A stretch of DNA of 64,000 nucleotides from Gilvimarinus polysaccharolyticus (lineage in GTDB: Bacteria; Pseudomonadota; Gammaproteobacteria; Pseudomonadales; Cellvibrionaceae). Below are positions 7,962-23,585 of the stretch, one piece after another. The notes under the pieces are model-generated. The model was not told where the DNA came from. It saw nothing but the letters and a program-made list of their open reading frames with translations, and searched no databases. The stretch covers positions 584,169-648,168 of the forward strand of contig NZ_LFIJ01000001.1 in assembly GCF_001187555.1 (NCBI RefSeq), read 5' to 3'. Position 1 is the stretch's first letter. Every line of letters begins with the position of its first letter. The position numbers and the translations under genes are program-made.

Positions 7962-8879
7962 TTAAGCCAACTCTACCAGTGCGCGTATCGCGAGAGCTGC
8001 GGCAGAGGTACGGTTTTCAACGCCGAGCTTTCTAAAAATCTGCTCTAAATGTTTGTTTACTGTGCGTGGACTCATGTCTAAAATTTGGCCGATTTCACGG
8101 TTGGTTTTACCGTTGGCAATCCACAGTAGAACATCGGCTTCGCGCTGAGTAACGGTAAATTTACGGCGCAAAACATCCGTGTTGGTTTCGTTGCTAGGGG
8201 TGTCAATCAGTCTGAGTAAATGCTCATGCTGATTGACCAGCGCTAAAAACTCCACAGTCAGTGGCGTGGGTAAAAAATCTAAATTCAATTTGTGTCCGGG
8301 CTCGGGCTTGTGACTAAACCAGCGCGCTAGAGTATCGTTGAGCTGAGTTTGTAACGCTTCCTGGGCTGTTCCGGCATTGGCCAGTTGTGCGTGTACTGCG
8401 GGCGTTGCCCACAGCGGTTGCCCCTGTAAGTCGGCGGCAAATAAATTTTGTCCTGCTAAATCAAGTGCGGCTCGAGCACTGCGAGCCATCCGTGCGTTGG
8501 CTAAATGTACCTGCATGCGCGCCACTAACTCAGCGGCATTGATGGGCTTGGTAATATAGTCGACCCCACCCGATTTGAGTCCCATCACTACATGCTCGGT
8601 GTCACTTAAACCGGTCATAAAGATAATCGGCACATCCATCAATTTAGGGTTTTCTTTAAGGGCTCGGCAAGTTTCAAAGCCATCCATATTCGGCATGATG
8701 GCATCCAGCAAAATAATGTCTGGGGTAATATTTTGAGTGATAGTTAATGCTTGCGAGCCTTCAAGGGCAACCAAGACCGTCATATTGGCGGTTTCCAAAA
8801 CATCGTTGAGCATACGAATGCTGTCGATGGCATCGTCTACTACTAGCGCAACGATTTTGTCGGGTTTAGCCGTTTGCAT
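7962..8879 (-). CDS. LuxR/NarL-type response regulator of the amide island
   Basis: A 305-residue two-domain regulator. The N-terminal receiver (about residues 8-128) has the acidic pair VVDD, phosphoacceptor Asp59 in ILLDAIMP, and the Lys of KPINA. A roughly 100-residue linker follows. The C-terminal LuxR helix-turn-helix (about 238-302) reads FTVTQREADVLLWIANG and then TNREIGQILDMSPRTVNKHL. Its start lies inside the end of the kinase gene (14-base overlap), so the two form a cognate pair. By inference it binds the CTACGTCAAATGACGTAG elements upstream of the importer and formamidase genes and activates them. Confidence 0.9.
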   Translation of the reverse strand: MQTAKPDKIVALVVDDAIDSIRMLNDVLETANMTVLVALEGSQALTITQNITPDIILLDAIMPNMDGFETCRALKENPKLMDVPIIFMTGLSDTEHVVMGLKSGGVDYITKPINAAELVARMQVHLANARMARSARAALDLAGQNLFAADLQGQPLWATPAVHAQLANAGTAQEALQTQLNDTLARWFSHKPEPGHKLNLDFLPTPLTVEFLALVNQHEHLLRLIDTPSNETNTDVLRRKFTVTQREADVLLWIANGKTNREIGQILDMSPRTVNKHLEQIFRKLGVENRTSAAALAIRALVELA

Positions 8880-11800
8880 CGGATGTTCCTTTTAAGAGTT
8901 CGGTAAGTTGTTCAAACTGAAAATTATCGGTAAGCGCAGTGCATCGCTCAAAAAAGTCGCGCTGACACTTCCCCTCGGCCATTAAGGTATTTAAGTAGCG
9001 AATGAGTCCGCTTTTGTGACCAATGGTGGCCAGTGTCGCCAGTTGTTGCCGATGGGGTTCGTCCGGTAACCTAAGTGCGTTACTCATTTCGAGCTGTGGG
9101 CCTATGGTTGAATTGGCAAGCACGGCAGGAGCGTCCGAGGTGAGCAATTGATTCGCCGAAATAGCATCGTGACACCACTGAATATCAAGCAGCGCACCGA
9201 TTTTATCGAGTAGGCTGGCAATTTTTATCGGCTTAACCAAGTAAGCATTATGGGGCGCGGGTGTTATGTAAGCCGATTGATCTTCGCGAGCGTCGGCGGA
9301 TACCATAACAATCGGGCAGTTAATATGCGCGGCGCGTAAATGTTGTGCTAGCTCCCAGCCAGACAGTGCGGGCATATTGACGTCCAGCATAATAAGATCG
9401 GGTTTAGTCGCTAGTGCAACTTGTTCTGCATCCAGCGAGTTATCGACAAATTTTAGATGAAAATCCAGTGGCGCTAAAATGGCCTGTATTAATTCGCGGT
9501 GACTGGCCTCATCGTCAACTACCAACAGCGTTTTACGCGGGCCGTGATAACCGGTGATATGCGCGCTGATATTTTCGCTGCGCTCGGCTTGGGTTGGATG
9601 AATGCTGGACAACATCAGTGTGACTTTAAACGTACTGCCTTGGCCGGGAGTACTTTCAAGAGCAATATCGCCGCCCATAATGTCGGTCAGCAGGCGTGTA
9701 ATGGTTAGGCCCAGACCGGTACCTGCGATAGTGCTACCGGGGCGCTTAACGCGCTCAAAGGGGCGATAAATTCGCTCGACATCTTGTTGCGCGATACCCT
9801 CACCGGTATCCGTGATGGTAAATTCGGCTACTTGCGAGCGGTAGCGCACGTTAAAAGTTACTCGGCCTTGCTCGGTGTATTTAATGGCGTTTGATAATAA
9901 ATTAATAAGAATCTGACGTAAGCGTTGCTCATCGGTTTTAACAAATTCTGGTAAGTGACTGGAGCAAATATAATCAAACTCTAGGCCTTTGTTTTCCGCT
10001 TCTGGCCGAAACATATACACTAATTGCTCTAGCAATTGAGGGAGGCGTACTTGTTCCATATGCAAGTCGAGGCGACCTGCCTCAATTTTAGAGATATCCA
10101 ATAAACCTTCAATTAAATCCCCAAGGTGTTCGCCACTGCGACGAATCACGGCAATGGCGGCACGCTTTGAATCGGGAATAGAGGTGTCTTTCTCCAGTAA
10201 TTGGGCGTAACCCAGTACCGCATTGAGGGGCGATCGCAACTCGTGACTAATACCGGTTAGGTAGCGGCTTTTGGCTTGGTTGGCCGCCTCGGCGGTATCT
10301 TTGGCTCGCTGCAACTCTCGGTCAGTATGTTGATGGGCTGTAATCTCTTCGGTTAGCAGGCGTGTTTGTCGTTGAGTTTCTTCTTGTGCCACAACTCGGC
10401 TTTCGTGTGCGAGAACAAACAGCCAACTAATAATGCCGGTAATAATGACCAGTAAAAAAAATACTTTCCATAATGTCGTGGCAGTATTAGGCGTTGGGCT
10501 TTGAAAATAAATAAGCGATAACAGCAGCGCTGAAAAGCCGTTTATTACCCCGAGCAGCCCTAAAAAGTGACCAATACGTGAATTAACCTCAGGAATTAAG
10601 GCTGCGGGTAAAAAGCGTGTTAGCGCCGACCGCAGCTGCTCTGAATAACCCGCGCCCGGTTTACAGTAATCGCCGCAGCGGGCATCTAATGAACAGCACA
10701 GTGAACAAATATTGCCGGCATAAGCAGGGCAGTGGCTAATATCTTCGCGTTCAAAGCGGTGTTCACAAATACAACACATGGCGCTTGTTTGGTCGGCTTG
10801 ATCAAATTCAATATCGCTGGCAATTAATTCACGGGCAATATAATAGCGGCCCTTTGTCAGCCATGCGATTAAGGGAACAAAAATGAGTGTAGACCCGAGT
10901 GTTATAAAGTGGGCTAAGGCTTGAGGGGCATAACCTAATGCCCCGCTATAGCTCACCATGCCTAATAAAGTGGCAAGAATCATCGAGCCACAGCCAACTG
11001 GATTGATGTCGTACAAGTGGGCGCGTTTAAATTCGATATGTTTGGGAGACAATCCCAAGGGTTTGTTGATAGTCAGATCAGCCACTAAACAGCCAACCCA
11101 CGCGACCGCAATAATGGCGTAAAAACCAAGGGTTTGCTCCAGAGCTTGGTAGACTCCAAGCTCCATTAGTAGCAAAGCGATGGCAACATTAAATACCAAC
11201 CAGACAACTCGGCCGGGATGCGAGTGGGTGAGACGTGAGAAAAAGTTAGACCATGCGATGGAGCCTGCGTAAGCATTGGTGACATTAATTTTAAGCTGAC
11301 ACAAAACCACAAAAATACCGGCGACGGCCAGCGCTATTTCTGGCGAGTCGGTAATATAGCCAAAGGCAATGGTGTACATTTGGGTGGGGTCAGCGGCCTC
11401 GGTTAAGCTAATGCCGTGGCCTAAAACTAAAACGGCTAAAAAGGAGCCCGCTAACATTTTAATAGCACCGACCAAGATCCAGCCGGGGCCGGCAGCCATG
11501 GTGCACAACCACCAGCGCTTGCGCGTTGCCGGAGTGGGCTCGGGTATAAACCGTAAAAAATCAACCTGCTCACCGATCTGGGCAATCAGGGCAAACATAA
11601 CGGCACAAGCTGCGCCAAAAAGCATTAGGTCAAATTCGCCAGTGGGAGCGGCGCTGGTCGTGTATTGAGTCCAGTCTGTGACGGCGCTGGCATCGGCGTA
11701 AATAATAAAAATAAAAGGCAGTAGTTGTAAAATAAGCCAAATCGGTTGGCTCCAGACCTGAAAGCGACTGATGAAAGTAATGCCGTAGACCACCAGAGGA

Positions 11801-12282
11801 ATAACCATAAGGGCACTGACTAAATAACCGAGGGCCAACGGTAAACCAAATAACAGTTTTAACGCCATCGCCATGATGGCGGCTTCTAAGGCAAAAAAGA
11901 TAAACGTAAAAGAGGCATAAATAAGCGAGGTGATGGTCGAGCCAATATAGCCGAAACCTGCGCCGCGAGTTAATAGATCGATATCTAGGCCGTATTTCGC
12001 GGCGTAGTAGCTGATGGGGGTTGCCGTTAGTAAAACAATCAAGCTCACCGCAAAGATGGCGGCAATAGCGTTGGTAAAACCGTAATGGAGGGTGACAGTA
12101 CCACCGATGGCTTCGAGTGCTAAAAAAGAGATGGCACCGAGTGCGGTTATAGCCACACGAGAGGCGCTCCAGCGACGTGCGCTTTTGGCGGTAAAGCGCA
12201 GGGCATAATCTTCTAACGTTTGGTTGCCGACCCATTTGTTGTAATTGCGGCGTACACGAAATATATGCTGTTTGGCTGTCAT
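8866..12282 (-). CDS. NCS1 transporter-fused hybrid sensor histidine kinase
   Basis: An 1138-residue fusion. Residues about 1-490 are an NCS1 (purine/cytosine/hydantoin permease) domain with about 12 membrane helices. Residues 501-540 form a cluster of nine cysteines (503, 504, 506, 518, 526, 529, 530, 536, 540) with His508 and His517. Two more membrane helices (about 570-625) lead to a coiled coil, a HisKA domain with phosphoacceptor His680 in GISHELRSPLNAV, and an ATPase domain (ILINLLSNAIKYTEQG; GTGLGLTI). A receiver follows (Asp967 in LIMLDVNMP), then a 100-residue tail. The organisation recalls CbrA and CrbS, which have an SLC5 transporter instead. Divergent from the amide importer, it probably senses an amide, urea or their transport. 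Whether the transporter part still transports is unknown. Confidence 0.9.
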   Translation of the reverse strand: MTAKQHIFRVRRNYNKWVGNQTLEDYALRFTAKSARRWSASRVAITALGAISFLALEAIGGTVTLHYGFTNAIAAIFAVSLIVLLTATPISYYAAKYGLDIDLLTRGAGFGYIGSTITSLIYASFTFIFFALEAAIMAMALKLLFGLPLALGYLVSALMVIPLVVYGITFISRFQVWSQPIWLILQLLPFIFIIYADASAVTDWTQYTTSAAPTGEFDLMLFGAACAVMFALIAQIGEQVDFLRFIPEPTPATRKRWWLCTMAAGPGWILVGAIKMLAGSFLAVLVLGHGISLTEAADPTQMYTIAFGYITDSPEIALAVAGIFVVLCQLKINVTNAYAGSIAWSNFFSRLTHSHPGRVVWLVFNVAIALLLMELGVYQALEQTLGFYAIIAVAWVGCLVADLTINKPLGLSPKHIEFKRAHLYDINPVGCGSMILATLLGMVSYSGALGYAPQALAHFITLGSTLIFVPLIAWLTKGRYYIARELIASDIEFDQADQTSAMCCICEHRFEREDISHCPAYAGNICSLCCSLDARCGDYCKPGAGYSEQLRSALTRFLPAALIPEVNSRIGHFLGLLGVINGFSALLLSLIYFQSPTPNTATTLWKVFFLLVIITGIISWLFVLAHESRVVAQEETQRQTRLLTEEITAHQHTDRELQRAKDTAEAANQAKSRYLTGISHELRSPLNAVLGYAQLLEKDTSIPDSKRAAIAVIRRSGEHLGDLIEGLLDISKIEAGRLDLHMEQVRLPQLLEQLVYMFRPEAENKGLEFDYICSSHLPEFVKTDEQRLRQILINLLSNAIKYTEQGRVTFNVRYRSQVAEFTITDTGEGIAQQDVERIYRPFERVKRPGSTIAGTGLGLTITRLLTDIMGGDIALESTPGQGSTFKVTLMLSSIHPTQAERSENISAHITGYHGPRKTLLVVDDEASHRELIQAILAPLDFHLKFVDNSLDAEQVALATKPDLIMLDVNMPALSGWELAQHLRAAHINCPIVMVSADAREDQSAYITPAPHNAYLVKPIKIASLLDKIGALLDIQWCHDAISANQLLTSDAPAVLANSTIGPQLEMSNALRLPDEPHRQQLATLATIGHKSGLIRYLNTLMAEGKCQRDFFERCTALTDNFQFEQLTELLKGTSDANG

Positions 12283-12757
12283 CTAGTCTGCAATCCCCAT
12301 GGACGGTGTTTGATTTATGATTGTCTATTGGCCCGTTCGTGAGCGTTTACTGTGTTCGTGGGCTGGCTTGTCCTGGGTGTTGTTTTATTTTGCGATCAAC
12401 CGCTGCATTATTTTGGTGCACCGCTTGGTGCGTCCCAGCCAAAATGGTGCGCTATTGTTGTTGAACCGTAACTCGGTGTTTGCTGAAGTCCTTTTGTTGC
12501 GTCTTTATTGCCGTGTTTTATACCGTTGCCTGTAGTAACTATCAAAAGCCGTACCAAGTCACCTTAATTACACATTTATTCCTGCGCGCACGACTCTACC
12601 GTTAGTGCTTGAGAGTCCCTATGCGTCAAATGACGTAGCTTCATGGTGTGTTTGGCGAATAGTGCTCAAGCTCGACTTTCCTGAGAATAAGCATCGTAGG
12701 CACAGCGTGTCTGTTGCTGGGCGAACCCACTTCTGGGATAACCAATGAGGAAAGAAC
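12283..12757. other. Divergent regulatory region between the kinase and amide operons
   Basis: About 475 bases between the leftward kinase gene and the rightward importer operon. It contains operator copy (a) at 12621-12638, some 120 bases before the importer start, and a ribosome binding site GAGGAA at 12747-12752. A 72-codon open frame at 12317-12535 lacks recognisable features and I treat it as non-coding. No operator copy is seen next to the kinase start, so the kinase/regulator pair may not be autoregulated through this motif. Confidence 0.55.
12621..12638. promoter_or_regulatory. Amide-island operator, copy a
   Basis: ATGCGTCAAATGACGTAG matches the perfect copy CTACGTCAAATGACGTAG at 16 of 18 positions. 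It lies 120 bases upstream of the ABC importer binding-protein gene. The stretch TGTTTGGCGAATAGT starts 28 bases after the element begins and resembles the equivalent stretch at copy (b). Proposed binding site of the response regulator encoded at 7962-8879. Confidence 0.6.
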
Positions 12758-14029
12758 ATGGGAACTTTAGATAACGCACCGTTAGTTGACCTTGGGGGTC
12801 GACTACCAAGCTTAATGAAAGGCCTAGCCGCTGCCGTGGCTGGTGTAACTTTGGCGTTTTCGGCGGCCGTTAGTGCAGCGCCGGCGACCTCCGAGGTTAA
12901 CACTACTGATCTGGCTGTGACCGATGATACGGTTACAGTAGGTATTCTTCACTCTGTGACCGGCACCATGGCGATCAGTGAGACTGGTTCGGTACAAGCA
13001 GAGAAGTTGGCTATTGAGCAAATCAACGCCATGGGCGGTGTGCTCGGCCGTCAAATTGAATACGTTCAAGAAGATGGTGCTAGTGACTGGCCAACCTTTG
13101 CTGAAAAATCACGTAAATTGTTGCTGCAAGATAAAGTAGCCTCGGTTTTTGGTTGCTGGACTTCGGCTTCGCGTAAAGCGGTGCTGCCGGTGTTTGAGCA
13201 GTATAACGGCATGTTGTACTACCCCACCTTTTACGAGGGTTTAGAGCAGTCGCCTAATGTTATCTATACCGGTCAAGAAGCGACTCAACAAATTCTTGCG
13301 GGTATCGATTGGGTTGTAAAAGAGAAGGGTGCAAAAACCTTCTACCTGCTGGGCTCTGATTATATCTGGCCTCGCACCTCTAACAAAATTGCTCGTAAGC
13401 ACATCGAAAAGCTGGGCTTAAAAGTGGTTGGTGAAGATTACTATCCACTAGGTCACACTCAGTTCAACTCGGTGATCAACAAGTTCAAGTTGAAAAAGCC
13501 TGACGTTATCTTTGCATCGGTTGTGGGTGGCTCTAACGTTGCCTTTTACAAGCAGCTTAACGCTGCTGGTATTGACATGACCAAAGAGAAGCCGTTGGTG
13601 TTGACTATCTCTGTAACCGAAGATGAAATCTTGGGTATCGGTGGTGAGAACATCGTAGGTGCTTACGCTTCTATGAAGTACTTCCAGAGCTTGACCAACA
13701 GCAATAACGTTGAATTTGTTAAAGCGTTTAAAAAGCGTTGGGGTGACGACATCGTTATCGGTGATGTAACTCAAGCGGCTTACCTTGGTCCTTGGTTGTG
13801 GAAAGCAGCTGTTGAAAAAGCGGGTTCATTTGATGTGGATAAAGTTCGCGCCGCTTCACCTGATATCGAGCTGACGACTGCACCAGAAGGCTACGTTAAA
13901 GTGCATCCTAATCATCACTTGTGGTCTAAGACTCGTATTGGTAACGCAAAGCTTGATGGCCAATATGAAATTGTTTACGAAACTGATGAGCTGATTGAGC
14001 CAAATCCGTTCCCAGAAGGTTACCAGTAG
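12758..14029 (+). CDS. urtA: Amide/urea ABC transporter substrate-binding protein (UrtA/FmdD family)
   Basis: A 423-residue periplasmic binding protein of the UrtA/FmdD/AmiC branch. The signal peptide has a long n-region: GAGGAA at 12747-12752 supports the ATG at 12758, and the hydrophobic core (GLAAAVAGVTLAFSAAVSAA) begins only after residue 20. The body carries the family segments VGILHSVTGTMAISETG, GASDWPTFAEKSRKLL, FGCWTSASRKAVLPVFE and MLYYPTFYEGLEQSPNV. UrtA binds urea, and the related FmdD of Methylophilus binds short amides. The genes downstream are amidases and no urease is present in the window, so amides are the more likely ligand here. Two hairpins follow, so this first gene is probably the most abundant product of the operon. 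Confidence 0.92.
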   Translation: MGTLDNAPLVDLGGRLPSLMKGLAAAVAGVTLAFSAAVSAAPATSEVNTTDLAVTDDTVTVGILHSVTGTMAISETGSVQAEKLAIEQINAMGGVLGRQIEYVQEDGASDWPTFAEKSRKLLLQDKVASVFGCWTSASRKAVLPVFEQYNGMLYYPTFYEGLEQSPNVIYTGQEATQQILAGIDWVVKEKGAKTFYLLGSDYIWPRTSNKIARKHIEKLGLKVVGEDYYPLGHTQFNSVINKFKLKKPDVIFASVVGGSNVAFYKQLNAAGIDMTKEKPLVLTISVTEDEILGIGGENIVGAYASMKYFQSLTNSNNVEFVKAFKKRWGDDIVIGDVTQAAYLGPWLWKAAVEKAGSFDVDKVRAASPDIELTTAPEGYVKVHPNHHLWSKTRIGNAKLDGQYEIVYETDELIEPNPFPEGYQ

Positions 14030-14139: not shown

Positions 14140-15066
14140 ATGTTCGCCGATTACACGACCTCTGAGTTAATGTCGATATTTGCCATGCAGGGCTTTTCAG
14201 GATTAATTTTATTTTCTGTCTTTGTTCTTATGGCGTTAGGGCTGGCTATTATTTTTGGCCAGATGGGCGTTATCAATATGGCGCATGGCGAGTTTATGAT
14301 CCTCGGTGCGTATGTTACTTATTTAACATCTAATGTTTTTTCCGAGTATATGCCGGCGTTGTTTGGTGGATACTTTTTTGTCGCCATGATATTGGCGTTT
14401 ATTGCCGCAGGTGCTTTAGGTATGTTGGTGGAGTGGGCCATGATTCGCCATTTATACCACCGGCCACTGGATACCTTGTTAGCCACTTGGGGTTTAAGTC
14501 TTATTTTGCAGCAGCTTTACCGCACTATTTTTGGCGCGCGAGAGGTTGGTGTCACTTTGCCAGATTGGTTGATGGGGTCGGTTCAAATTACCGATATTAT
14601 TGAAGTGCCCATTAACGGTATTTTTGTGATGACCTTGGCCGTTGGTATCTCGGTATTGATTGCGGCACTTATGTATCGTTCACGCTGGGGTATTCAAGTG
14701 CGTTCGGTAGTGCAAAATCGTCCGATGGCAGGGGCTGTTGGTATTAATACCGCCCGAGTTGATCGCTTAACATTTGGTTTGGGGTGTGGTATCGCGGGTG
14801 TTGCCGGCAGTGCATTTACCATGATCGGATCCACTGGTCCTACCTCTGGTCAGTTATATATTGTTGATACATTTTTAGTTGTAGTGTTTGGTGGTGCGGC
14901 AAGTTTGCTGGGAACCATTGCCTCTGCATTTACTATTTCTCAAGCGCAATCGACCATGGAGTTTTTCCTCAGCGGTTCAATGGCTAAAGTTCTGACGCTA
15001 TTGTTTGTTGTCTTCATTCTGATGCTAAGACCACAAGGTCTTTTCTCACTGAAAGTGCGTCGCTAG
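14140..15066 (+). CDS. urtB: Amide/urea ABC transporter permease (UrtB family)
   Basis: A 308-residue inner membrane permease of the LivH/UrtB type. The segment IIFGQMGVINMAHGEFMILGAY is the family signature region, and LRPQGLF near the C-terminus is also conserved. Several hydrophobic helices span the sequence. It pairs with the LivM-like permease that follows. The ATG at 14140 is preceded by GAGGA. It lies downstream of the partial terminator, so its message is probably less abundant than that of the binding protein. Confidence 0.92.
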   Translation: MFADYTTSELMSIFAMQGFSGLILFSVFVLMALGLAIIFGQMGVINMAHGEFMILGAYVTYLTSNVFSEYMPALFGGYFFVAMILAFIAAGALGMLVEWAMIRHLYHRPLDTLLATWGLSLILQQLYRTIFGAREVGVTLPDWLMGSVQITDIIEVPINGIFVMTLAVGISVLIAALMYRSRWGIQVRSVVQNRPMAGAVGINTARVDRLTFGLGCGIAGVAGSAFTMIGSTGPTSGQLYIVDTFLVVVFGGAASLLGTIASAFTISQAQSTMEFFLSGSMAKVLTLLFVVFILMLRPQGLFSLKVRR

Positions 15067-15078
15067 GAGGGTTAGCGT

Positions 15079-16245
15079 ATGTCTTATGCAAATTTACGAA
15101 CTCTGTTGCCGAAAAACGATATTCTCAATTTTGCGGTGCTGGCGTTAATTTTAGTGGTGGTATTACCGTTAAGTATGGATTTATTCCGTCTTAACTTGAT
15201 AGGTAAGTACCTTACTTATTCTTTTGTCGCACTAGGTTTGGTGTTGTGTTGGGGTTACGGTGGTATTTTAAGTTTAGGTCAAGGGGTTTTCTTTGGTCTG
15301 GGTGGTTATGCCATGGCGATGTTTTTAAAGATCGAAGCATCGTCACCAGAAAATACCGCTATTCAATCAACCCCTGGTATTCCAGACTTTATGGACTGGA
15401 ACCAGCTCACTGAACTTCCTTGGTTTTGGCAGCCGTTTCACAGCCTAACGTTTACTGTGATAGCGATTATTGTGATTCCGTCGATCTTTGCCTACATCAT
15501 TGGGGTTGCAATGTTTAAGCGTCGGGTTGGTGGTGTTTACTTCGCCATTATTACTCAAGCGGTTGCGGCAATCTTGACCATTTTGATTATAGGTCAGCAA
15601 GGTTATACCGGTGGTGTTAATGGTATTACGGATTTACGTACCTTGTTTGGCTGGGATATTCGTACCAATGAAGCTAAATACATATTCTATTTTTTGTGTG
15701 TGTTTATGTTGTTCTTGTGTCTTGGTGTTGCTCAGTACGTACGCAAAAGTAAGCTTGGCCGTTTGTTGGTTGCCATGCGCGAGATGGAAGATCGGGTACG
15801 CTTTTCGGGCTACGATGTCGCTAACTTTAAAATCTTTGTGTTCTGTCTTGGCTCTGCATTTGCAGCCATAGGTGGCGCAATGTTTACACTGCAGGTTGGC
15901 TTTATGTCACCTACGTTTGTCGGCATTGTACCTTCTATCGAAATGGTAATTTTCTGCGCAGTAGGCGGTCGATTGTCTATCTTTGGTGCCGTTTATGGCG
16001 CGCTTTTGGTGAACTGGGCGAAATCGACTTTCTCTGAGAGTTTCCCAGAGTTGTGGTTGTTTGCGATGGGTGCACTGTTCATTGGTGTTGTTATGGCTTT
16101 CCCCGATGGTTTGGCGGGTCTTTACAGCAAATACGGTGAGCCACATGTGACACGATTACTTGACCGATTTACTAGCTCTAAAAGTAAAACTTCAGGGGAT
16201 AGTGATTTGCCGCCTGAAATGGAAGCCGAAGGAGGTAACTCATGA
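15079..16245 (+). CDS. urtC: Amide/urea ABC transporter permease (UrtC family)
   Basis: A 388-residue LivM/UrtC-type permease. Family marks include LVLCWGYGGILSLGQGVFFGLGGYAMAM in the membrane core and GGVYFAIITQAVAAI before the central loop, then GYTGGVNGITD. A hydrophilic tail rich in Ser, Lys and Glu ends the protein in the cytoplasm. A strong ribosome binding site (AGGAGGG) precedes it. Its stop overlaps the ATP-binding subunit start (ATGA), so the two are translationally coupled. Confidence 0.92.
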   Translation: MSYANLRTLLPKNDILNFAVLALILVVVLPLSMDLFRLNLIGKYLTYSFVALGLVLCWGYGGILSLGQGVFFGLGGYAMAMFLKIEASSPENTAIQSTPGIPDFMDWNQLTELPWFWQPFHSLTFTVIAIIVIPSIFAYIIGVAMFKRRVGGVYFAIITQAVAAILTILIIGQQGYTGGVNGITDLRTLFGWDIRTNEAKYIFYFLCVFMLFLCLGVAQYVRKSKLGRLLVAMREMEDRVRFSGYDVANFKIFVFCLGSAFAAIGGAMFTLQVGFMSPTFVGIVPSIEMVIFCAVGGRLSIFGAVYGALLVNWAKSTFSESFPELWLFAMGALFIGVVMAFPDGLAGLYSKYGEPHVTRLLDRFTSSKSKTSGDSDLPPEMEAEGGNS

Positions 16246-16991
16246 GCTCAAGTAACACAGACTTTGTGCTTGCGGTTGAAGGGCTAACAGTTTCGTTTGA
16301 TGGTTTTAAAGCTGTTAATGATTTAAGTTTTTATGTTGATAAAAACGAAATCCGAGTTATTGTTGGCCCCAATGGTGCTGGTAAAACCACGGTTCTCGAT
16401 TTGATTTGCGGGCGAACTAAAGCCACTGAAGGCTCTATTAAGTTCCGCAATAAAGAGCTGACAAAAATGAAAGAGCATCAGATCGTCCGGGCGGGTGTGG
16501 GACGAAAGTTTCAAACGCCATCTATTTACGGAGATTTGACGGTATTTGAAAACTTAGAAATTTCTTTTCCTCGTGGACGTTCGGTCTTTGGCGCCTTGAC
16601 CTTTAAGCGCGATGCTGAAGTGTTGCAGCGTGTTGATGAAATATCGCGCATGATTTTTCTCGATGAGCTACTGCACACTCGCGGCGATCTGCTCAGTCAC
16701 GGTCAAAAACAGTGGTTAGAGATCGGTATGCTGTTGATTCAAGACCCTGAGTTGTTGATGTTGGATGAGCCTGTTGCGGGTATGTCGGTATCAGAACGCC
16801 GTAAAACCGCTGAGTTATTGCGCACAATTACTAAAGATCGTTCGGTGATTGTGATTGAGCATGATATGCAATTTGTCGCTGAGATTGCCGATAAAGTGAC
16901 AGTCTTGCATCAAGGCAAAATCTTAGCGGAAGGAACAGCAGAGCACGTTAAACAAGATCCTAAAGTCATCGAAGTATATTTAGGCCATTGA
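16242..16991 (+). CDS. urtD: Amide/urea ABC transporter ATP-binding protein (UrtD family)
   Basis: A 249-residue ABC ATPase. The Walker A motif is GPNGAGKTT (about residues 39-47). The signature reads LSHGQKQWLEIGMLL rather than LSGGQ, the usual form in UrtD. Walker B is LLMLDEPVAGM, followed by the switch His of IVIEHDMQFV. It energises the UrtBC-type permease pair from the cytoplasmic face with its partner. Start by ATGA overlap with the preceding gene; GGAGGT at 16231-16236 is its ribosome binding site. Confidence 0.93.
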   Translation: MSSSNTDFVLAVEGLTVSFDGFKAVNDLSFYVDKNEIRVIVGPNGAGKTTVLDLICGRTKATEGSIKFRNKELTKMKEHQIVRAGVGRKFQTPSIYGDLTVFENLEISFPRGRSVFGALTFKRDAEVLQRVDEISRMIFLDELLHTRGDLLSHGQKQWLEIGMLLIQDPELLMLDEPVAGMSVSERRKTAELLRTITKDRSVIVIEHDMQFVAEIADKVTVLHQGKILAEGTAEHVKQDPKVIEVYLGH

Positions 16992-17001
16992 GGAGAAGAC
17001 T

Positions 17002-17691
17002 ATGCTGAATGTGTCTGATTATCGAGTCAGTTACGGCCAGAGCAATATTATTAGCGGCATGAATTTCTCTGTAGCACCTAATGAAATTGTTGCGGTAATG
17101 GGTCGTAACGGAATGGGCAAAACCACACTCATGAAATCACTGATGGGGGTTATCCCATCAGAGTCCGGTAGCGTTACCCTTGATGGCACGGAAGTGTCCG
17201 GCATGAAAAGCTATCAGCGGGTTGAATCCGGCTTTGGCTTTGTACCGCAGGGGCGCATGATCTTTTCGAGCATGACCGTTAAAGAGAATATTGAAACGGG
17301 TTTGACTACCACGAACTCGCGCCATGTGCCGCGAGATCTTTACGATATGTTTCCAGTGCTGTTGGAAATGCGCAACCGTCGTGGCGGTAATTTGTCGGGC
17401 GGGCAGCAACAGCAGTTGGCGATTGCTCGGGCTTTGGCAAGTAACCCTAAAATGTTATTGCTGGATGAGCCCACAGAAGGAATTCAACCATCGATTATTC
17501 GTGATATGGCGCGCACGCTTAAAGAAATTCGCGATCAGCGCGGCTTGTCGATTGTTGTCTCTGAGCAAGTGCTGAGTTTTGCCCTCGATATTGCCGATCG
17601 AATTTTGGTGATTGAAAAAGGTGAGATTGTGCACGAAGAACTTAGATCAAATGTAGATGAAGCCAAAGTGGCTTCTTATCTGTCGGTGTAA
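17002..17691 (+). CDS. urtE: Amide/urea ABC transporter ATP-binding protein (UrtE family)
   Basis: A 229-residue ABC ATPase of the LivF/UrtE class. Walker A is GRNGMGKTT, the signature is [15 protein letters not shown] and Walker B is [15 protein letters not shown]. It completes a five-gene branched-chain-type importer, the only transporter of the operon apart from the kinase's fused domain. It lies 10 bases after the previous gene. An intrinsic terminator follows its stop codon, separating it from amiE. Confidence 0.93.
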
Positions 17692-17762: not shown

Positions 17763-18806
17763 ATGCGTCACGGTGATATTTCTAGCAGCCCCGATACAGT
17801 TGGCGTTGCAGTGGTTAATTACAAAATGCCTCGGTTACACACTAAAGCTGAAGTGTTAGAAAATGCCCGTAAGATTGCCGATATGATGATTGGCATGAAG
17901 AAGGGTTTACCGGGTATGGATCTGGTGGTGTTTCCCGAGTACAGCACGATGGGAATCATGTATGACAACGATGAAATGATGGCTACCGCTGCCACTATTC
18001 CGGGTGAAGAAACCGCGATTTTCTCTGAGGCCTGTCGTCAGGCCGATACCTGGGGAATATTCTCGTTAACCGGTGAGCAGCACGAAGATCATCCTAACAA
18101 AGCGCCTTATAACACCTTGGTGATGATTAATAATCAAGGTGAGATCGTACAGAAATATCGTAAATGTATTCCTTGGTGCCCCATTGAGGGCTGGTATCCC
18201 GGTGACAAAACCTATGTTACCGAAGGTCCCAAGGGCATGAAGATCAGTTTGATTATTTGCGATGACGGTAATTACCCTGAAATTTGGCGTGACTGCGCTA
18301 TGAAAGGTGCCGAGTTAATTGTCCGTTGTCAGGGGTATATGTACCCGGCTAAAGAACAGCAAGTGATGATGTCTAAAGCGATGGCTTGGGCCAACAACTG
18401 TTATGTTGCAGTGGCTAACGCTTCGGGTTTTGACGGAGTTTATTCTTACTTTGGGCACTCGGCCATTATTGGTTTTGATGGTCGCACATTGGGCGAGTGT
18501 GGCGAAGAGGATATGGGCGTGCAGTACGCACAACTGTCTGTGTCGCAAATTCGTGACGCACGTAAAAATGATCAATCGCAAAATCATCTGTTTAAATTAT
18601 TACATCGCGGTTATAGCGGCGTTTATAATTCTGGTGATGGAGACAAAGGCGTTGCCGAATGTCCTTTCGATTTTTATCGCAGTTGGGTGCTCGATGCAGA
18701 AAAAACCCAAGCAGATGTTGAGGCAATGACCCGCTCGACAATTGGTGTCGCAGACTGCCCCGTGGGTGATTTGCCGGTAGACGGAAAAGAAAAGTCAGCG
18801 GACTAA
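17763..18806 (+). CDS. amiE: Aliphatic amidase AmiE
   Basis: A 347-residue nitrilase-superfamily enzyme nearly collinear with P. aeruginosa AmiE; both begin MRHGDISSS. The catalytic triad is Glu59 (FPEYS), Lys134 (YRKCIPW) and Cys166 ([10 protein letters not shown]), at the same numbering as the studied enzymes. It hydrolyses short aliphatic amides such as acetamide and propionamide to the acid and ammonia in the cytoplasm, supplying nitrogen and carbon. It follows the importer operon after an attenuator-like terminator and precedes amiB, as in Pseudomonas. The regulators AmiC and AmiR and the channel AmiS are not found next to it. Confidence 0.97.
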
Positions 18807-18836: not shown

Positions 18837-19940
18837 GTGCCATTTATTAATGATTTATTGGCCGATCAGAACCCCCCAAGTTCTGTATCGCCTAGTGCTG
18901 GCAAGGCCGGTGAGTATCGCGTAGGACAAACGCGGTTTCGTTTTGATGTAACTAAAGCCAAAGCATTATTACGCGAGCGAATTGTTGGTCAGCCCGAAGC
19001 GATGGCGGCACTTGATAGTGCACTTGATGTGTTGAAGGCTGACATAGCAGATCCAGACCGACCGCTTTGGTCGGCTTTGCTGGCAGGCCCTACGGGAGTG
19101 GGTAAAACTGCCACCGTTAAAGTGTTAGCCGAGGCTCTCACCGGGAGTGCTGATAATTTTTGCCGCATTGATATGAATACATTGTCGCAAGCGCATTACA
19201 GTGCCGCTTTATCTGGTGCGCCACCTGGCTATGTGGGTAGTAAAGAGGGACACACCCTTTTTGATCCGGTGTTAATCGCCGGTGATTACTCTACGCCCGG
19301 CATTGTGTTGTTTGATGAGGTGGAAAAAGCCAGCCCAGAAGTCTTGCGAGCACTGTTAAATGTTTTAGAGGACGGGCACCTGCGTTTGAGTGCAGGTGAA
19401 AAAACCATCGATTTTCGCAATACGCTACTGTTGATGACAAGTAACCTGGGTGGGCGTGACTTAAGCGCGTGGTTAAAGCGCGCCCATTGGTGGCCGGGCA
19501 ATTCATCTAGCGTTTTGCCGCCGCGTGTAAAGCGACGAGTGAACGAGCGTATAGAGGCGTTCTTTGATCCAGAGTTTATCAACCGACTAGATCGGGTGTT
19601 AATCTATCGGCCGCTGGGGCAGGACAATGCGAATACATTGCTCGACCTTGAAATTGCACGATTAAACCGGCGCCTTAACCGTAAGGGATGGAGTCTGACT
19701 TTAACAGTTGAGGTGTGTGACACTATCGCAAAAACCTCTATGGACAAACGCTACGGTGCTCGGTCTGTGAGAAGAGTCGTGCGGGATGCTATTGAATCAC
19801 CGCTGGCACAATTTTTACTCACCTCTGGTCCGGTAACTAATCCAGGCCTTTCGGTAAAGCCTACCTCAAGCACTACATCCATGCTACGAGTGGCTCATGG
19901 GCAATTGCAGTCAGGCAATATCGTTTTTCACGAACAGTAA
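18837..19940 (+). CDS. amiB: AmiB-type AAA+ ATPase
   Basis: A 367-residue single AAA+ module related to the ClpA/ClpB second domain. Walker A is GPTGVGKTA, Walker B is IVLFDEVEKA, the sensor region reads LLMTSNLGG, and the arginine-containing RYGARSVRRVVRD lies in the C-terminal lid. It corresponds to AmiB, encoded directly after amiE in the P. aeruginosa ami operon and proposed to be a chaperone-like ATPase of amide metabolism. I chose the GTG at 18837, 30 bases after amiE, because AGGGGG lies just upstream. Its exact role is unresolved even in Pseudomonas. Keeping the amiE-amiB pair without amiCRS suggests it acts on the enzyme or transporter, not on the AmiR regulator. Confidence 0.88.
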   Translation: MPFINDLLADQNPPSSVSPSAGKAGEYRVGQTRFRFDVTKAKALLRERIVGQPEAMAALDSALDVLKADIADPDRPLWSALLAGPTGVGKTATVKVLAEALTGSADNFCRIDMNTLSQAHYSAALSGAPPGYVGSKEGHTLFDPVLIAGDYSTPGIVLFDEVEKASPEVLRALLNVLEDGHLRLSAGEKTIDFRNTLLLMTSNLGGRDLSAWLKRAHWWPGNSSSVLPPRVKRRVNERIEAFFDPEFINRLDRVLIYRPLGQDNANTLLDLEIARLNRRLNRKGWSLTLTVEVCDTIAKTSMDKRYGARSVRRVVRDAIESPLAQFLLTSGPVTNPGLSVKPTSSTTSMLRVAHGQLQSGNIVFHEQ

Positions 19941-20034
19941 TCTTACCTCTTACTCTCGCATTAAAGCGTTGGCATTCTCCGGCGCTTTAATGTGTCTCGT
20001 CATCTGTCATATTTTGTTTACTAAAGTCTAGACC

Positions 20035-20052
20035 ATGCGCCAAATGACGTAG
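20035..20052. promoter_or_regulatory. Amide-island operator, copy b
   Basis: ATGCGCCAAATGACGTAG matches the perfect copy at 15 of 18 positions. It is followed at 20062-20076 by TGTTTGTCGTATGAT, which resembles the stretch after copy (a) at nearly the same distance and contains the -10-like TATGAT. It is about 770 bases from the next gene start, so its target may be a non-coding transcript. Confidence 0.5.
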
Positions 20053-20720
20053 TGCTCGAGCTGTTTGTCGTATGATCGGTTTTGCTCGTGGATTCGATAC
20101 TAAGCCCACATCCGCAGTCCGTCGCAACCGCGCCTTTAGCTGGGTATTTAATTGAGCAGGGCGCTCATAAAGACAAATTGCAGCTACTGACTATCCATAG
20201 CGTTTTACAGTGCGGTGAGGTGCAATTTCGTTGACTTAGTGACACTAGCCTTTTAACTTCACAGTGAATAGCTATTAGCAAAAGCCAGCTCTTTTATAGC
20301 CGGTTTTTGGGTTTTAGGCCAGCATTATTAAGAGCGGATTAAGTCTGATTTTCGACTTTTACGGTCAATGCTGCATTTGAGGTAGTTAGCTGGCTAACGC
20401 CGTTGTGTTACTCAACATTGAAGCATCGCATGTGCAGTGATTGTCGGTAGCCTAATCCACTTATCCTTTTTAGTTCACTAGCAGCAAGTTATCCTGTTTT
20501 GCGCTAGCAAGTCCGCACGATACAGCACTCTCGCAGATATACTTTTAACCTTCCTAACCAGAGATGGACGCTGTAGTGGGCGTTATTGGGTGGCTCCTGT
20601 AGTCAGATGCTTTGTAATCCAATGTTGCTATGTAAAGGGGGCGGCGCGCCGTGCTTTCAGGAATGATACTTGCGAATCATTTTTCATGTTCCCTTTTGCC
20701 TCTTTGCCGGTGCTGCAAAC

Positions 20721-20738
20721 CTACGTCATTTAACGAAT
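20721..20738. promoter_or_regulatory. Amide-island operator, copy c, upstream of amiF
   Basis: CTACGTCATTTAACGAAT matches the reverse-oriented element at 15 of 18 positions. TATAAC, a plausible -10, starts at 20750, 29 bases after the element begins. The same offset to a -10-like hexamer (TATTAA) is seen at copy (d). The site would overlap the -35 region, the position expected for direct activation by a response regulator. Confidence 0.6.
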
Positions 20739-20742
20739 ATAC

Positions 20743-20760
20743 GCAATGTTATAACATTGC
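20743..20760. promoter_or_regulatory. 18-bp perfect palindrome at the amiF promoter
   Basis: GCAATGTTATAACATTGC is a perfect 18-bp palindrome just downstream of operator copy (c), covering the presumed -10. It may be a second operator, for example for a repressor. I saw no second copy in the window. Confidence 0.5.
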
Positions 20761-20816
20761 AACAATGCCCTTGTATCTGCAGATAACCCATTAAACATTC
20801 ATTCTGGAGTTTTTGT

Positions 20817-21824
20817 ATGGCTAGTACAGGTAGCGTTAGCGCTTGGGATGAAGCGCTTTTGACCGCAATGATTCAATATCCCGTCCCAGTGATTAAAGGT
20901 CCCGAAGATATTCAGGTCCAGGTGGATCAAATTTGTAAGGCTCTGGCATCGACAAAAGCCGGTTACCCTGATCTTGACTTGATCGTATTTCCGGAATATT
21001 CCACGCAAGGCTTAAATACAGCTATCTGGACTTATGATGAAATGCTGTTGACGATTGATAGCCCCGAGATCGATCAGTTTCGAAAGGCCTGCGTCGACAA
21101 TGACGTATGGGCCGTTTTCTCCTTGATGGAGAAAAATGAGGATCCGTCTAAGCCGCCCTATAACACCGCTATTATTGTCAATAATGAAGGCGAAATTGCA
21201 CTGCACTATCGCAAATTGCAGCCTTGGGTGCCGATTGAGCCCTGGTCGCCGGGCAATTTCGGTATGCCAGTATGTGACGGGCCCAAGGGTTCCAAACTTG
21301 CCGTTTGCATCTGTCACGACGGTATGTTCCCAGAACTAGCTCGCGAAGCCGCTTATAAAGGTGCCAATGTCTATATTCGCATTTCCGGTTATTCGACCCA
21401 AGTAAATGATCAGTGGATTTGGACCAATCAAACCAATGCTTGGCAAAATTTAATGTACACAATCTCGGTCAATTTGGCCGGTTACGACGGTGTTTTCTAC
21501 TACTTCGGTGAGGGCACGGTGTGCAACTATGATGGCAACGTCGTTCAGCAAGGTCACAGAAACCCCTGGGAAATCGTGACCGCGGAGCTTTTCCCGAGAC
21601 TGGTAGACAAGGCTCGAGAAAACTGGGCGCTGGAGAACAACATCTTTAATCTTGGGTGTCGCGCTTACGTAGGCCAGCCCGGAGGCAGCAAAGAAAACTA
21701 CCTGACGTGGGTTAAGGACCTTGCCGATGGTAATTACAAGCTGCCTTGGGATGACAAAGTTAAGATTCGCGATGGCTGGAAGTACTATCCCGACGGCGTA
21801 AAGCTGGGGCCGATGCCAAAATAA
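20817..21824 (+). CDS. amiF: Formamidase AmiF (nitrilase superfamily)
   Basis: A 335-residue enzyme closely resembling Helicobacter pylori AmiF (334 residues). The catalytic triad Glu60 ([12 protein letters not shown]), Lys133 (HYRKLQPW) and Cys166 (CICHDGM) sits at the same positions. It hydrolyses formamide to formate and ammonia. Conserved blocks such as GCDGPKGSK-like and [15 protein letters not shown] are present. It has its own promoter region with operator copy (c) and a palindrome. It is paralogous to AmiE three genes earlier but not to FmdA, which follows. Start supported by TTCTGGAG about 8 bases before the ATG. Confidence 0.96.
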
Positions 21825-21853: not shown

Positions 21854-21893
21854 GCACCACTCACCTACGTCAAATGACGTAGGTGAGTGGTGC
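21854..21893. promoter_or_regulatory. 40-bp palindrome containing perfect operator copy d
   Basis: Two 19-base arms (21854-21872 and 21875-21893) are exact reverse complements around a central AA. The core CTACGTCAAATGACGTAG (21865-21882) is the best copy of the island element. TATTAA at 21894-21899 starts 29 bases after the core begins, as at copy (c). With no T-tract after it, terminator function is doubtful, though as RNA it would form a very stable hairpin between amiF and fmdA. Confidence 0.7.
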
Positions 21894-21980
21894 TATTAAC
21901 GCATGGTCGCTCCTTGGGGTTTCATCGATACTGCAGTCATTACTAACTGGATCAAGATGATTCCCCGAGGAGTTACCGAC

Positions 21981-23213
21981 ATGACAGAAACCATTGTAAA
22001 AATCGACTTAAGCAAATCGGCCTATGAAAACGACATGATCCACAACCGTTGGCACCCAGATATTCCTATGGTTGCCACAGTTAAGCCTGGCGACGATTTT
22101 ATTATGGAGTGCTACGACTGGACTGGTGGTCAGATCGAAAACAATGATTGTGCGGATGATATTCGCGATGTGGATCTGACCCAAGTACACTTTTTGTCGG
22201 GCCCTGTCGGTGTTGAAGGCGCTGAACCTGGCGACTTGTTAGTCGTCGATATTCTTGATATTGGTGCCTTTAAAGAAAGCCAGTGGGGTTTTAATGGTTT
22301 TTTCTCTAAACAAAACGGCGGTGGCTTTTTAACCGAGCAGTTCCCCGAAGCACAAAAGTCCATTTGGGACTTTAACGGCATGTTCACAAAATCACGCCAT
22401 ATACCTGGGGTCGAGTTTGCCGGTCTTATTCACCCAGGGTTAATTGGTTGTCTGCCATCTAAAGAATTGTTGGATAACTGGAACGAACGCGAGAAAGGGC
22501 TGTACGATACCGAGCCTGATCGCGTGCCAGCACTGGCTACACTGCCTTATGCCGAGACTGCGCATATGGGCCGTATGAAAGGTGATGAGGCGAAGGTTGC
22601 TGCGGCCGAGGGCGCGCGTACTGTTCCGCCTCGTGAGCACGGCGGCAACTGTGATATTAAAGATTTGTCTCGCGGCTCAAAAATCTATTTCCCTGTTTAT
22701 GTTGAAGGCGGTGGTTTAAGTGTAGGCGATTTACACTTTAGCCAAGGCGACGGTGAAATTACTTTCTGTGGCGCTATTGAAATGGCCGGTTGGATTCACT
22801 TACGGGTTAATTTGGTTAAAAAAGGCATGGAGATGTACGGGATTAAAAACCCGATCTTTAAACCTAGCCCGATCACGCCAAAATACGATGACTATATTAT
22901 TTTTGAAGGTATCTCGGTAGATGAGCACGGCGGTCAGCATTATCTGGATGTACAGGTGGCTTACCGACAGGCCTGCTTGAATGCCATCGAATTTTTAACC
23001 AAATTCGGTTACAGCAAGGCACAGGGTTACGCCATTTTAGGCTGTGCACCAGTGCAAGGGCATATCAGTGGCGTGGTGGATATCCCCAACGCTTGTGCGA
23101 CCTTATGGCTGCCAACGGATATCTTTGAGTTTGATATTAACCCGACCGCGGAAGGCCCCAAGAAAATGGTCGACGGCACCATCGACATCCCATTATCGAA
23201 AGATAAGGAGTAA
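21981..23213 (+). CDS. fmdA: Formamidase FmdA (acetamidase/formamidase family)
   Basis: A 410-residue metal-type acetamidase/formamidase, unrelated in fold to AmiF and AmiE. It resembles Methylophilus methylotrophus FmdA (about 407 residues). Family blocks include NRWHPDIPMVATVKPGD, GPVGVEGAEPGDLLVVDILDIG, PREHGGNCDIKDL, VEGGGLSVGDLHFSQGDGE and GAIEMAG. I start at 21981 (MTETIVKIDL) because GAGGAG lies at 21967-21972; the in-frame ATG at 21903 would add 26 residues with no family resemblance and lies at the promoter. It cleaves formamide and probably other short amides to the acid and ammonia. The next gene, fmdB, is its usual partner. Confidence 0.95.
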   Translation: MTETIVKIDLSKSAYENDMIHNRWHPDIPMVATVKPGDDFIMECYDWTGGQIENNDCADDIRDVDLTQVHFLSGPVGVEGAEPGDLLVVDILDIGAFKESQWGFNGFFSKQNGGGFLTEQFPEAQKSIWDFNGMFTKSRHIPGVEFAGLIHPGLIGCLPSKELLDNWNEREKGLYDTEPDRVPALATLPYAETAHMGRMKGDEAKVAAAEGARTVPPREHGGNCDIKDLSRGSKIYFPVYVEGGGLSVGDLHFSQGDGEITFCGAIEMAGWIHLRVNLVKKGMEMYGIKNPIFKPSPITPKYDDYIIFEGISVDEHGGQHYLDVQVAYRQACLNAIEFLTKFGYSKAQGYAILGCAPVQGHISGVVDIPNACATLWLPTDIFEFDINPTAEGPKKMVDGTIDIPLSKDKE

Positions 23214-23216
23214 ATC

Positions 23217-23585
23217 ATGCCTGTTTACGATTACCGTTGCAGCGAGCACGGCGTGTTTAATGAGCTGGCGACTATAGACAAAAGCTCGGCGCCTGCGGCT
23301 TGCCCGCAGTGCGGCACGTTGTCAGGTAGGGTGATTATGATGTCACCGACACTGATGGATATGGCCCCTAGCAACCGCCAGGCCCATGCTCGCAATGAGA
23401 AATCACGGGACACCCCGTCATTCTCGACGCCTGAGTCACGCCTTGAAGATAAGGCTCGGCGCGAGCACAAGCACGGTAAAGGTTGCGGCTGTGGCGATAG
23501 CCCAATTCGTAAATCGAAAGTGTTTTATACGCCCGATGGCAGCAAGATCTTTCCCTCGGCTCGGCCTTGGATGATCAGCCATTAG
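23217..23585 (+). CDS. fmdB: FmdB-family zinc-ribbon protein
   Basis: A 122-residue small protein beginning MPVYDYRC, the FmdB signature. The N-terminal zinc ribbon probably uses Cys8, His11 (CSEH in place of the usual CxxC), Cys29 and Cys32 (CPQC). A charged middle and a second cluster, HKHGKGCGCG, near residue 85 follow. FmdB is thought to regulate the formamidase genes in Methylophilus, but its mechanism is not known. It starts 3 bases after fmdA, so it is translationally linked. An intrinsic terminator closes the operon. Confidence 0.9.
   Translation: MPVYDYRCSEHGVFNELATIDKSSAPAACPQCGTLSGRVIMMSPTLMDMAPSNRQAHARNEKSRDTPSFSTPESRLEDKARREHKHGKGCGCGDSPIRKSKVFYTPDGSKIFPSARPWMISH

Follow-up and report, generated by a model that had tools for sequence, protein, structure and literature searches.

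The window analysed in this study, a stretch of 64,000 nucleotides from Gilvimarinus polysaccharolyticus (contig NZ_LFIJ01000001.1, positions 584,169 to 648,168), holds on its minus strand a gene (8866-12282) for a hybrid sensor histidine kinase of 1138 amino acids (aa), whose modelled membrane domain has the fold of the NCS1 transporters. The kinase represents a real and widespread family of NCS1-fold kinases that is tied to urea and amide genes, comes with a partner regulator as well as a predicted operator, and is undescribed in the literature searched. The plus-strand frame over this interval is full of stops, while the minus-strand open reading frame gives clear Pfam matches to HisKA (residues 670-736, 10075-10275; PF00512), HATPase_c (residues 783-891, 9610-9936; PF02518) and Response_reg (the receiver, residues 920-1028, 9199-9525; PF00072), with H680 in HisKA and D967 in the receiver as phospho-acceptors by motif. 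Ahead of this hybrid kinase part lie the membrane domain (residues 1-480, 10843-12282), a module with eight cysteines (residues 500-541, 10660-10785) that is predicted to be cytosolic, and two extra helices (residues 568-639, 10366-10581) present in the AlphaFold2 model. The C-terminal tail (residues 1030-1138, 8869-9195) has no Pfam match; W1036, L1081 and G1088 are among its positions conserved in at least 95%. The end of the kinase gene is overlapped by 14 bp by the gene of its partner response regulator (7962-8879, minus strand), in which Pfam recognizes a receiver, with D59, and a LuxR-type GerE domain. The sequence-only reading of this DNA had described a 1138-residue protein with a cysteine cluster, kinase and receiver, overlapping a LuxR-type regulator gene, and all of these elements are real, with the kinase encoded on the minus strand.

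Divergently from the kinase, on the plus strand, the window carries urtA (12758-14029; TIGR03407), urtB (14140-15066; TIGR03409), urtC (15079-16245; TIGR03408), urtD (16242-16991; TIGR03411) and urtE (17002-17691; TIGR03410). All five NCBIfam models are matched above cut-off, which identifies a urea-type ABC importer, UrtABCDE, with urea and amides as candidate substrates. They are followed on the same strand by the aliphatic amidase gene amiE (17763-18806; NF009802, PRK13286) and by a gene for a ClpB-like AAA ATPase (18837-19940; PF07724, with TIGR03346 below cut-off), which by its position is AmiB-like. Further downstream are the formamidase gene amiF (20817-21824; NF009803, PRK13287), the acetamidase/formamidase gene fmdA (21903-23213; PF03069), whose true start may lie near 21981, and a gene for an FmdB-type zinc ribbon protein (23217-23585; PF09723). 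The divergent ATP-binding cassette importer and three amidases that had been read from the letters alone could thus be named. A search of 12200-12800 gave neither a sigma-70 promoter pattern nor a terminator, and a sigma-54 match in the intergenic region is what chance would give, 65 of 200 shuffles doing as well. GGTGC-rich repeats lie near the kinase start (12404-12432).

In regard to the fold, profile-profile comparison (hhalign) of 89 kinase N-terminal domains (N-domains) with nine NCS1 proteins from related genomes gave 97.3% (E 2.4e-11, 347 columns), and the control comparison of the same 89 domains with four SLC5-type (SSS) proteins of the own genome gave 0.2%. The AlphaFold2 model built from the 89-sequence alignment reached a predicted local distance difference test score (pLDDT) of 91.5 and a predicted template modelling score of 0.91; an earlier run from 15 close sequences, with pLDDT 57.9, was not used. 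The five best Foldseek hits of this model were CodB and Mhp1. In VIA-align, the model matched CodB with Z 36.1 (397 residues, root-mean-square deviation 3.1, spanning residues 22-478) and the Mhp1 entry 4d1a with Z 30.8 (435 residues, deviation 3.9, residues 22-514), both scoring above every SLC5 structure listed, and two other Mhp1 entries, at Z 27.7 and 27.5, were on a par with AgcS, the next family (27.0). The N-domain scanned alone against NCBIfam gave a weak cytosine permease match of 21.2 bits (E 1e-4), far short of the cut-off of 326, none of the curated NCS1 models (PF02133 and the NCBIfam NCS1/cytosine permease models) matched the kinase above cut-off, a PF02133 search in 38 genomes of the window's relatives set matched nine other places and no kinase, and searching PDB sequences with the N-domain profile in HMMER gave nothing useful, with one match at E=10. 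The gap is bridged by a free-standing NCS1 relative of the sensor domain, P0003 (L189:7949-9439), which is matched by the N-domain profile with 76.5 bits and itself by PF02133 above cut-off, so that the chain of homology from the kinase N-domain to NCS1 is closed. Profile comparison and modelling together confirm that the N-domain has an NCS1 fold and is distantly homologous to NCS1 transporters, and the NCS1-type label of the sequence-only reading is upheld in this way, though not by Pfam.

The distribution of the kinase was followed in three samples, the window's relatives set, a named set and an even draw of Pseudomonadota genomes. A scan of one genome per species, covering 84,980 species, returned at least 586 confirmed relatives, of which the best 80 were kept as the named set. 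The even draw comprised 398 genomes, 52 of them with the kinase, and provided 56 neighbourhoods, 55 with a kinase and one (L189) with a free-standing relative. The 80 named and 55 drawn kinase loci make up the 135 loci in which gene content was counted by tblastn with self-set bit-score thresholds; L189 was left out, and neither the own locus nor G002 is included. Closer to the window, whose host genome (3.74 Mb) is 99.98% complete, the kinase was found in all eight searched genomes of the genus. The relatives set comprises 58 genomes, 24 of which contain it by our own count, a raw tally of 58 including other kinases as well; among the best 80 named records, that of Cellvibrio mixtus is the closest, with 73% in the N-domain.

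Where at least 8.5 kb of upstream sequence is available (115 loci), urt, fmdA, amiE or urease genes are always present, while among the 20 loci with a shorter upstream stretch such genes are visible in 12 and not in eight. The named set, ranked by similarity, contributes 64 of the 115 loci and the even draw 51, and some genomes may be in both. A survey of whether such fusions lie beside amidase or urt genes, which had been proposed for this kinase, was thereby run and turned out positive, and it also showed a further branch beside urease genes. These are the main partner in 19 of the 135 loci, on several separate branches. With strict labels, which left 23 of 89 rows unlabelled, the fmd and urease labels change at least five times on the tree of the 66 labelled rows, gain and loss not being distinguished, and shuffling the labels on the same tree gave 12-15 changes (five of the shuffles). 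A UrtA-type gene is present in 71 of the 80 named and 46 of the 56 drawn stretches, mostly adjoining the kinase and divergent from it, and the partner regulator in 78/80 and 53/56, respectively. A single gene order dominates, with a different orientation in L156, L160, L166, L184 and L185. The kinase occurs without detectable urt genes, within about 20 kb examined, in L178, L180, L182, L184, L185, L187 and L188. The homologues in L184 and L185 are shorter (open frames of 894 and 899 aa) and are followed on their own strand by fmdA and fmdB; in neither locus did tblastn detect anything closely homologous to the LuxR-type partner. In L091, from a Burkholderiales metagenome-assembled genome, urtB and urtC stand about 5 kb apart, some 4-9 kb upstream of the kinase.

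Co-occurrence was counted over the 398 drawn genomes, with FmdA proper defined by a full-length match at E<1e-160. Kinase and FmdA were found together in 39 genomes, FmdA only in one (G169), the kinase only in 13 and neither in 345 (Fisher 1.4e-41, phylogeny ignored). If any PF03069 match is accepted instead, the respective numbers become 42, 33, 10 and 313, from which it follows that the tight link is to FmdA proper. Homologues were also found in 502 plasmid records (E up to 1e-150), 338 of them from Klebsiella. On one such conjugative IncFIB/FII plasmid (L207), amiF-urtEDCBA is divergent from kinase and regulator. Half of an even sample of plasmid rows (15/30) annotate the gene as just 'ATP-binding protein', and pSymB of Sinorhizobium meliloti 1021 also carries a homologue.

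Between the membrane domain and the kinase core, C503, C506, C518, C526, C529, C530, C536 and C540 are invariant in all 132 aligned homologues, and the eight-cysteine pattern was seen in 149/149 N-domains. A profile of the module found 58 places in the 398 drawn genomes; 57 belong to this kinase, in frames of 894-1365 aa from exactly the 52 genomes that have it, and the remaining one is a weak match in a 50-aa frame. Since the module's own loop, with nine lysine and arginine and 13 aspartate and glutamate residues, is not net basic, we can only infer that it faces the cytosol, from the helix parity of the AlphaFold2 model and the basic loops elsewhere. Residues 480-640 gave no Pfam domain above cut-off, STAC not having been compared directly.

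Residue roles in CodB and Mhp1 were taken from the covered parts of two published studies (PMC9379551, PMC4195764), according to which Thr278 and Thr279 of CodB hold sodium. Mapping through profile alignments, not by superposition, places F129 at CodB Trp108 and Mhp1 Trp117, E133 at Mhp1 Gln121, K331 and I332 at CodB Thr278 and Thr279, and N336, across a one-residue gap, at Mhp1 Asn318. In Mhp1, Ser312 and Thr313 are presumably the sodium ligands. Over 150 N-domains E57, Q235, E238, Q239, D241, K331, N333 and N336 show no variation, I332 has a single exception (149/150), and E133 is found in 149, the remaining sequence having a gap. When 100 fmd-linked and 19 urease-linked domains were compared (L146, on a cut contig, being counted as fmd), the pocket-region residues E57, T126, E133, Q235, E238, Q239, K331, N333 and N336 proved invariant or nearly so in both groups, and, among the residues listed for the 150 N-domains, a single I332V was the sole difference between amide-linked and urease-linked members. 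None of the 25 positions that best split fmd-linked from urease-linked domains is a mapped contact residue, and nothing was drawn from them. The conserved polar residues could form a pocket for the carbamoyl group that the candidate ligands share, and the replacement of the sodium-site hydroxyls suggests that the N-domain may be independent of sodium; the stand-alone P0003 has Arg at the Lys331 position.

P0003 adjoins genes of nitrilase type, of UrtA/AmiC type and for AmiR (AmiR_N + ANTAR) (L189:9306-12984), as if the sensor kinase and AmiC/AmiR control alternated. The other stand-alone relative, P0002 (L205:14685-16334, on plasmid pHY1 of Methylovirgula sp. HY1, annotated as hypothetical), has 549 aa, is 53% identical over 532 columns and possesses the cysteine module without a kinase. 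Its neighbours include genes for a formamidase and an aliphatic amidase and a full-length kinase-regulator pair, and no urt gene is annotated in its 26-kb stretch, the gene table of which is incomplete.

When the intergenic region of the window was aligned with those of ten close relatives, a conserved block emerged that contains the palindrome TRCGTCAWWTGACGYA, and this palindrome precedes urtA, amiF and fmdA in the window. The pattern search gave predicted operators without mismatch upstream of urtA (12622-12637) and of fmdA (21866-21881), and these two are the only exact copies in the genome. Operator-like sites with one mismatch (20036-20051) and with two mismatches (20722-20737, 79 bp before amiF) lie in the gap before amiF; this gap, of 876 bp (19941-20816), holds a third site at three mismatches (20369). 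With up to two mismatches, the palindrome was found in 52 of 130 upstream stretches (51/129 without the window), compared with 6/645 other stretches of the same loci and 0/390 letter shuffles. Bradyrhizobium and its kin carry variants of a second, GC type, TACGC(G/A)ATCTTGCGTA, instead. The palindrome variants track residue 275 of the regulator, which by the general layout of GerE domains lies in the presumed recognition helix and is N with the first (GTCA) type and D or T with the second; D59 of the regulator is present in 118/118 aligned sequences. Among the 114 loci having both a regulator and an upstream stretch, the 61 with N275 divide into 38 of GTCA type, five of GC type, one tie and 17 of neither, and 40 of the 41 with D275 are of GC type, with one of neither. 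T275 accompanies the GC type in five of six loci (one neither), and K275 (five loci) and H275 (one locus) go with neither type. Shuffled stretches reached the threshold in 2/305 cases for the first type with N and in 6/205 for the second with D. The LuxR-type partner would be expected to bind the palindrome.

Taken together, the kinase is probably a sensor of urea and short amides which, with its regulator and the palindrome, switches on the urt, ami and fmd genes. In such a mechanism, urea, formamide or acetamide would be bound by the NCS1-fold domain in its substrate pocket, and closure of the domain would be relayed via the eight-cysteine module and the two helices to the HisKA/HATPase core. 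The LuxR-type regulator encoded by the overlapping gene would then receive the phosphate, probably through the receiver of the hybrid kinase, and in its phosphorylated form would bind TRCGTCAWWTGACGYA upstream of urtA, amiF and fmdA and activate the genes of uptake and hydrolysis. The idea of an NCS1 fold serving as an amide or urea sensor had already been put forward from the letters alone, and both the confirmed fold and the linkage survey support it.

Several observations weigh against this interpretation. The N-domain gives no Pfam match, the NCS1 model PF02133 included, at any threshold tried. The stacking Trp of NCS1 transporters on transmembrane helix (TM) 3 is replaced by F129 in 143/149 domains and by Leu in six, and by alignment the Ser/Thr pair of the Na2 site on TM8 is replaced by K331 (150/150) and I332 (149/150); with the Trp changed to Phe and the sodium-site hydroxyls gone, the chemistry of the pocket may differ. 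As for the operator, the genome contains 12 places with up to two mismatches to the palindrome (four in the cluster), compared with nine for the reversed control, and the six places of the window at up to three mismatches were reached by 8 of 100 shuffles, so that the number of palindromes by itself says little and only their exactness, position and recurrence favour them. The palindrome, at up to two mismatches, was recognised in just 2 of the 19 urease-linked loci, which leaves a gap in the model. Furthermore, 3/30 shuffled stretches reach the second-type threshold in the small T275 group, and 36 of the 41 D275 loci belong to Bradyrhizobium and near kin (others to Azospirillum and Enhydrobacter), so that the covariation rests on few independent events. 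Nitrogen may also regulate the cluster and could be the dominant input. The NtrC-like site found at 12417 (TGCACC-N4-GGTGCG) is weak, being equalled by 13/200 shuffles, and thus only hints at such control.

It is also conceivable, if on balance doubtful, that the NCS1-fold domain is a transceptor which itself imports urea and amides while the kinase reads its transport cycle, as in CbrA. The stand-alone P0002, with its cysteine module and a place near amidases, and P0003 beside nitrilase-type, UrtA/AmiC-type and AmiR genes would fit such a view, as does CbrA, which in the covered parts of the two studies transports histidine in a proton-driven manner with non-conserved Na2 residues (PMC7918813) and has its Na2 site filled by Lys196 (PMC13022988). 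P0002 and P0003 are only putative transporters, however, and a dedicated ABC importer usually stands alongside the kinase, where transport by the kinase would be redundant. Taken further, and more speculatively, the kinases could represent a second, independently evolved class of transceptors, in which an NCS1-fold carrier both imports urea and small amides and signals, an invariant Lys (Arg in the stand-alone relative) replaces sodium, and a private cytosolic eight-cysteine module couples the carrier to the kinase, as a general switch for amide islands and some urease operons in Proteobacteria.

Other alternatives depart more from ligand sensing by the membrane domain. If this domain were a mere anchor and the cysteine module read a cytosolic signal such as metal, redox or nitrogen status, the strict conservation of the eight cysteines would be accounted for, as would the observation, in the covered part of PMC7918813, that highly expressed CbrA lacking its SSS domain still activates a target. 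Yet an anchor would have no need of conserved pocket-region residues, and these vary as little as the cysteines do, which makes this explanation unlikely. The persistence of the module in P0002, where no kinase follows, can be read both for and against this view. That the domain senses ligand-loaded periplasmic UrtA and not the free ligand would agree with the UrtA-type gene so often found next to the kinase and divergent from it, but it is quite improbable given the seven kinase loci mentioned above in which no urt genes were detected within about 20 kb and the Methylovirgula kinase, near which none is annotated. Least probable of all is that the kinase controls other targets and its linkage is merely inherited. 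The dominance of one gene order would suit such a passenger, but the partner changes between fmdA and urease at least five times on the tree, the orientation varies, and urtA, amiF and fmdA are all preceded by the palindrome. The present findings thus provide the catabolic islands for amides and urea with a candidate sensor, a candidate regulator and a candidate operator.

The amiE gene of Pseudomonas aeruginosa is controlled by AmiC/AmiR, which likewise regulates amidase genes. The sequence-only reading had stated that neither protein is encoded here. For AmiR this holds, as a search for the ANTAR domain (PF03861) found none in the own genome but was positive in 11 of the 38 genomes examined from the relatives set. 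For AmiC it needs qualification, as UrtA belongs to PF13433, the same Pfam family as the protein adjoining AmiR in L189 and presumably also P. aeruginosa AmiC. In contrast to AmiC/AmiR, the system proposed here would operate by a phosphorelay and a DNA operator and not by antitermination.

Published clusters present related arrangements. The fmdCABDEF genes of Methylophilus methylotrophus, induced by formamide and urea and repressed by high ammonia, likewise combine a formamidase with binding-protein-dependent uptake, and the covered part of the review describing them names no sensor kinase (PMC10781810). Of the other two sources, as far as covered, one reports a P. veronii cluster of amiE, fmdA, fmdB and urtABCDE without amiC and amiR (2026, PMC13209695), and the other a hybrid kinase and LuxR regulator beside the urtABCDE operon of Ectopseudomonas (PMC13296017); the present sensor is not described in the parts covered of these three papers. 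No NCS1-fold kinase was recognized from titles and abstract starts in the open-access literature, subscription journals being mostly outside its scope, and the earlier remark that no described NCS1-fused kinase for amides was known stands within these bounds. The urease-linked branches, the operator, the Lys at the sodium site and the stand-alone relatives of the domain go beyond what had been read before.

Among transporters of known structure, CodB and Mhp1 share the fold and a distant sequence homology with the N-domain, and some of their substrate-contact positions are polar and conserved here too. The N-domain differs from them in lying below Pfam detection, in having Phe129 for the Trp and Lys331/Ile332 for CodB Thr278/Thr279, and in its added module, two helices and kinase. 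The closest parallel in architecture is provided by the SLC5-STAC kinases CbrA and CrbS/MxtR, which likewise join an APC-fold transporter domain, a small linker domain and a histidine kinase and act with a partner regulator. In CbrA the sodium-site residues are also replaced, with Lys196 in the Na2 site in the covered parts of PMC13022988 and PMC7918813, and its likeness to K331 is suggested by alignment. The Lys described here is on the TM8 equivalent. With no PF00474 match, only 0.2% in hhalign against the four SSS proteins and SLC5 structures scoring lower, the kinase is analogous to the SLC5-STAC kinases and not a member of them. An NCS1 fold takes the place of SLC5, an eight-cysteine module apparently that of STAC and PAS, the partner is of LuxR type and the context is one of amides and urea. 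The family makes signalling by transporter-fused kinases testable in a second fold, with small and cheap candidate ligands.

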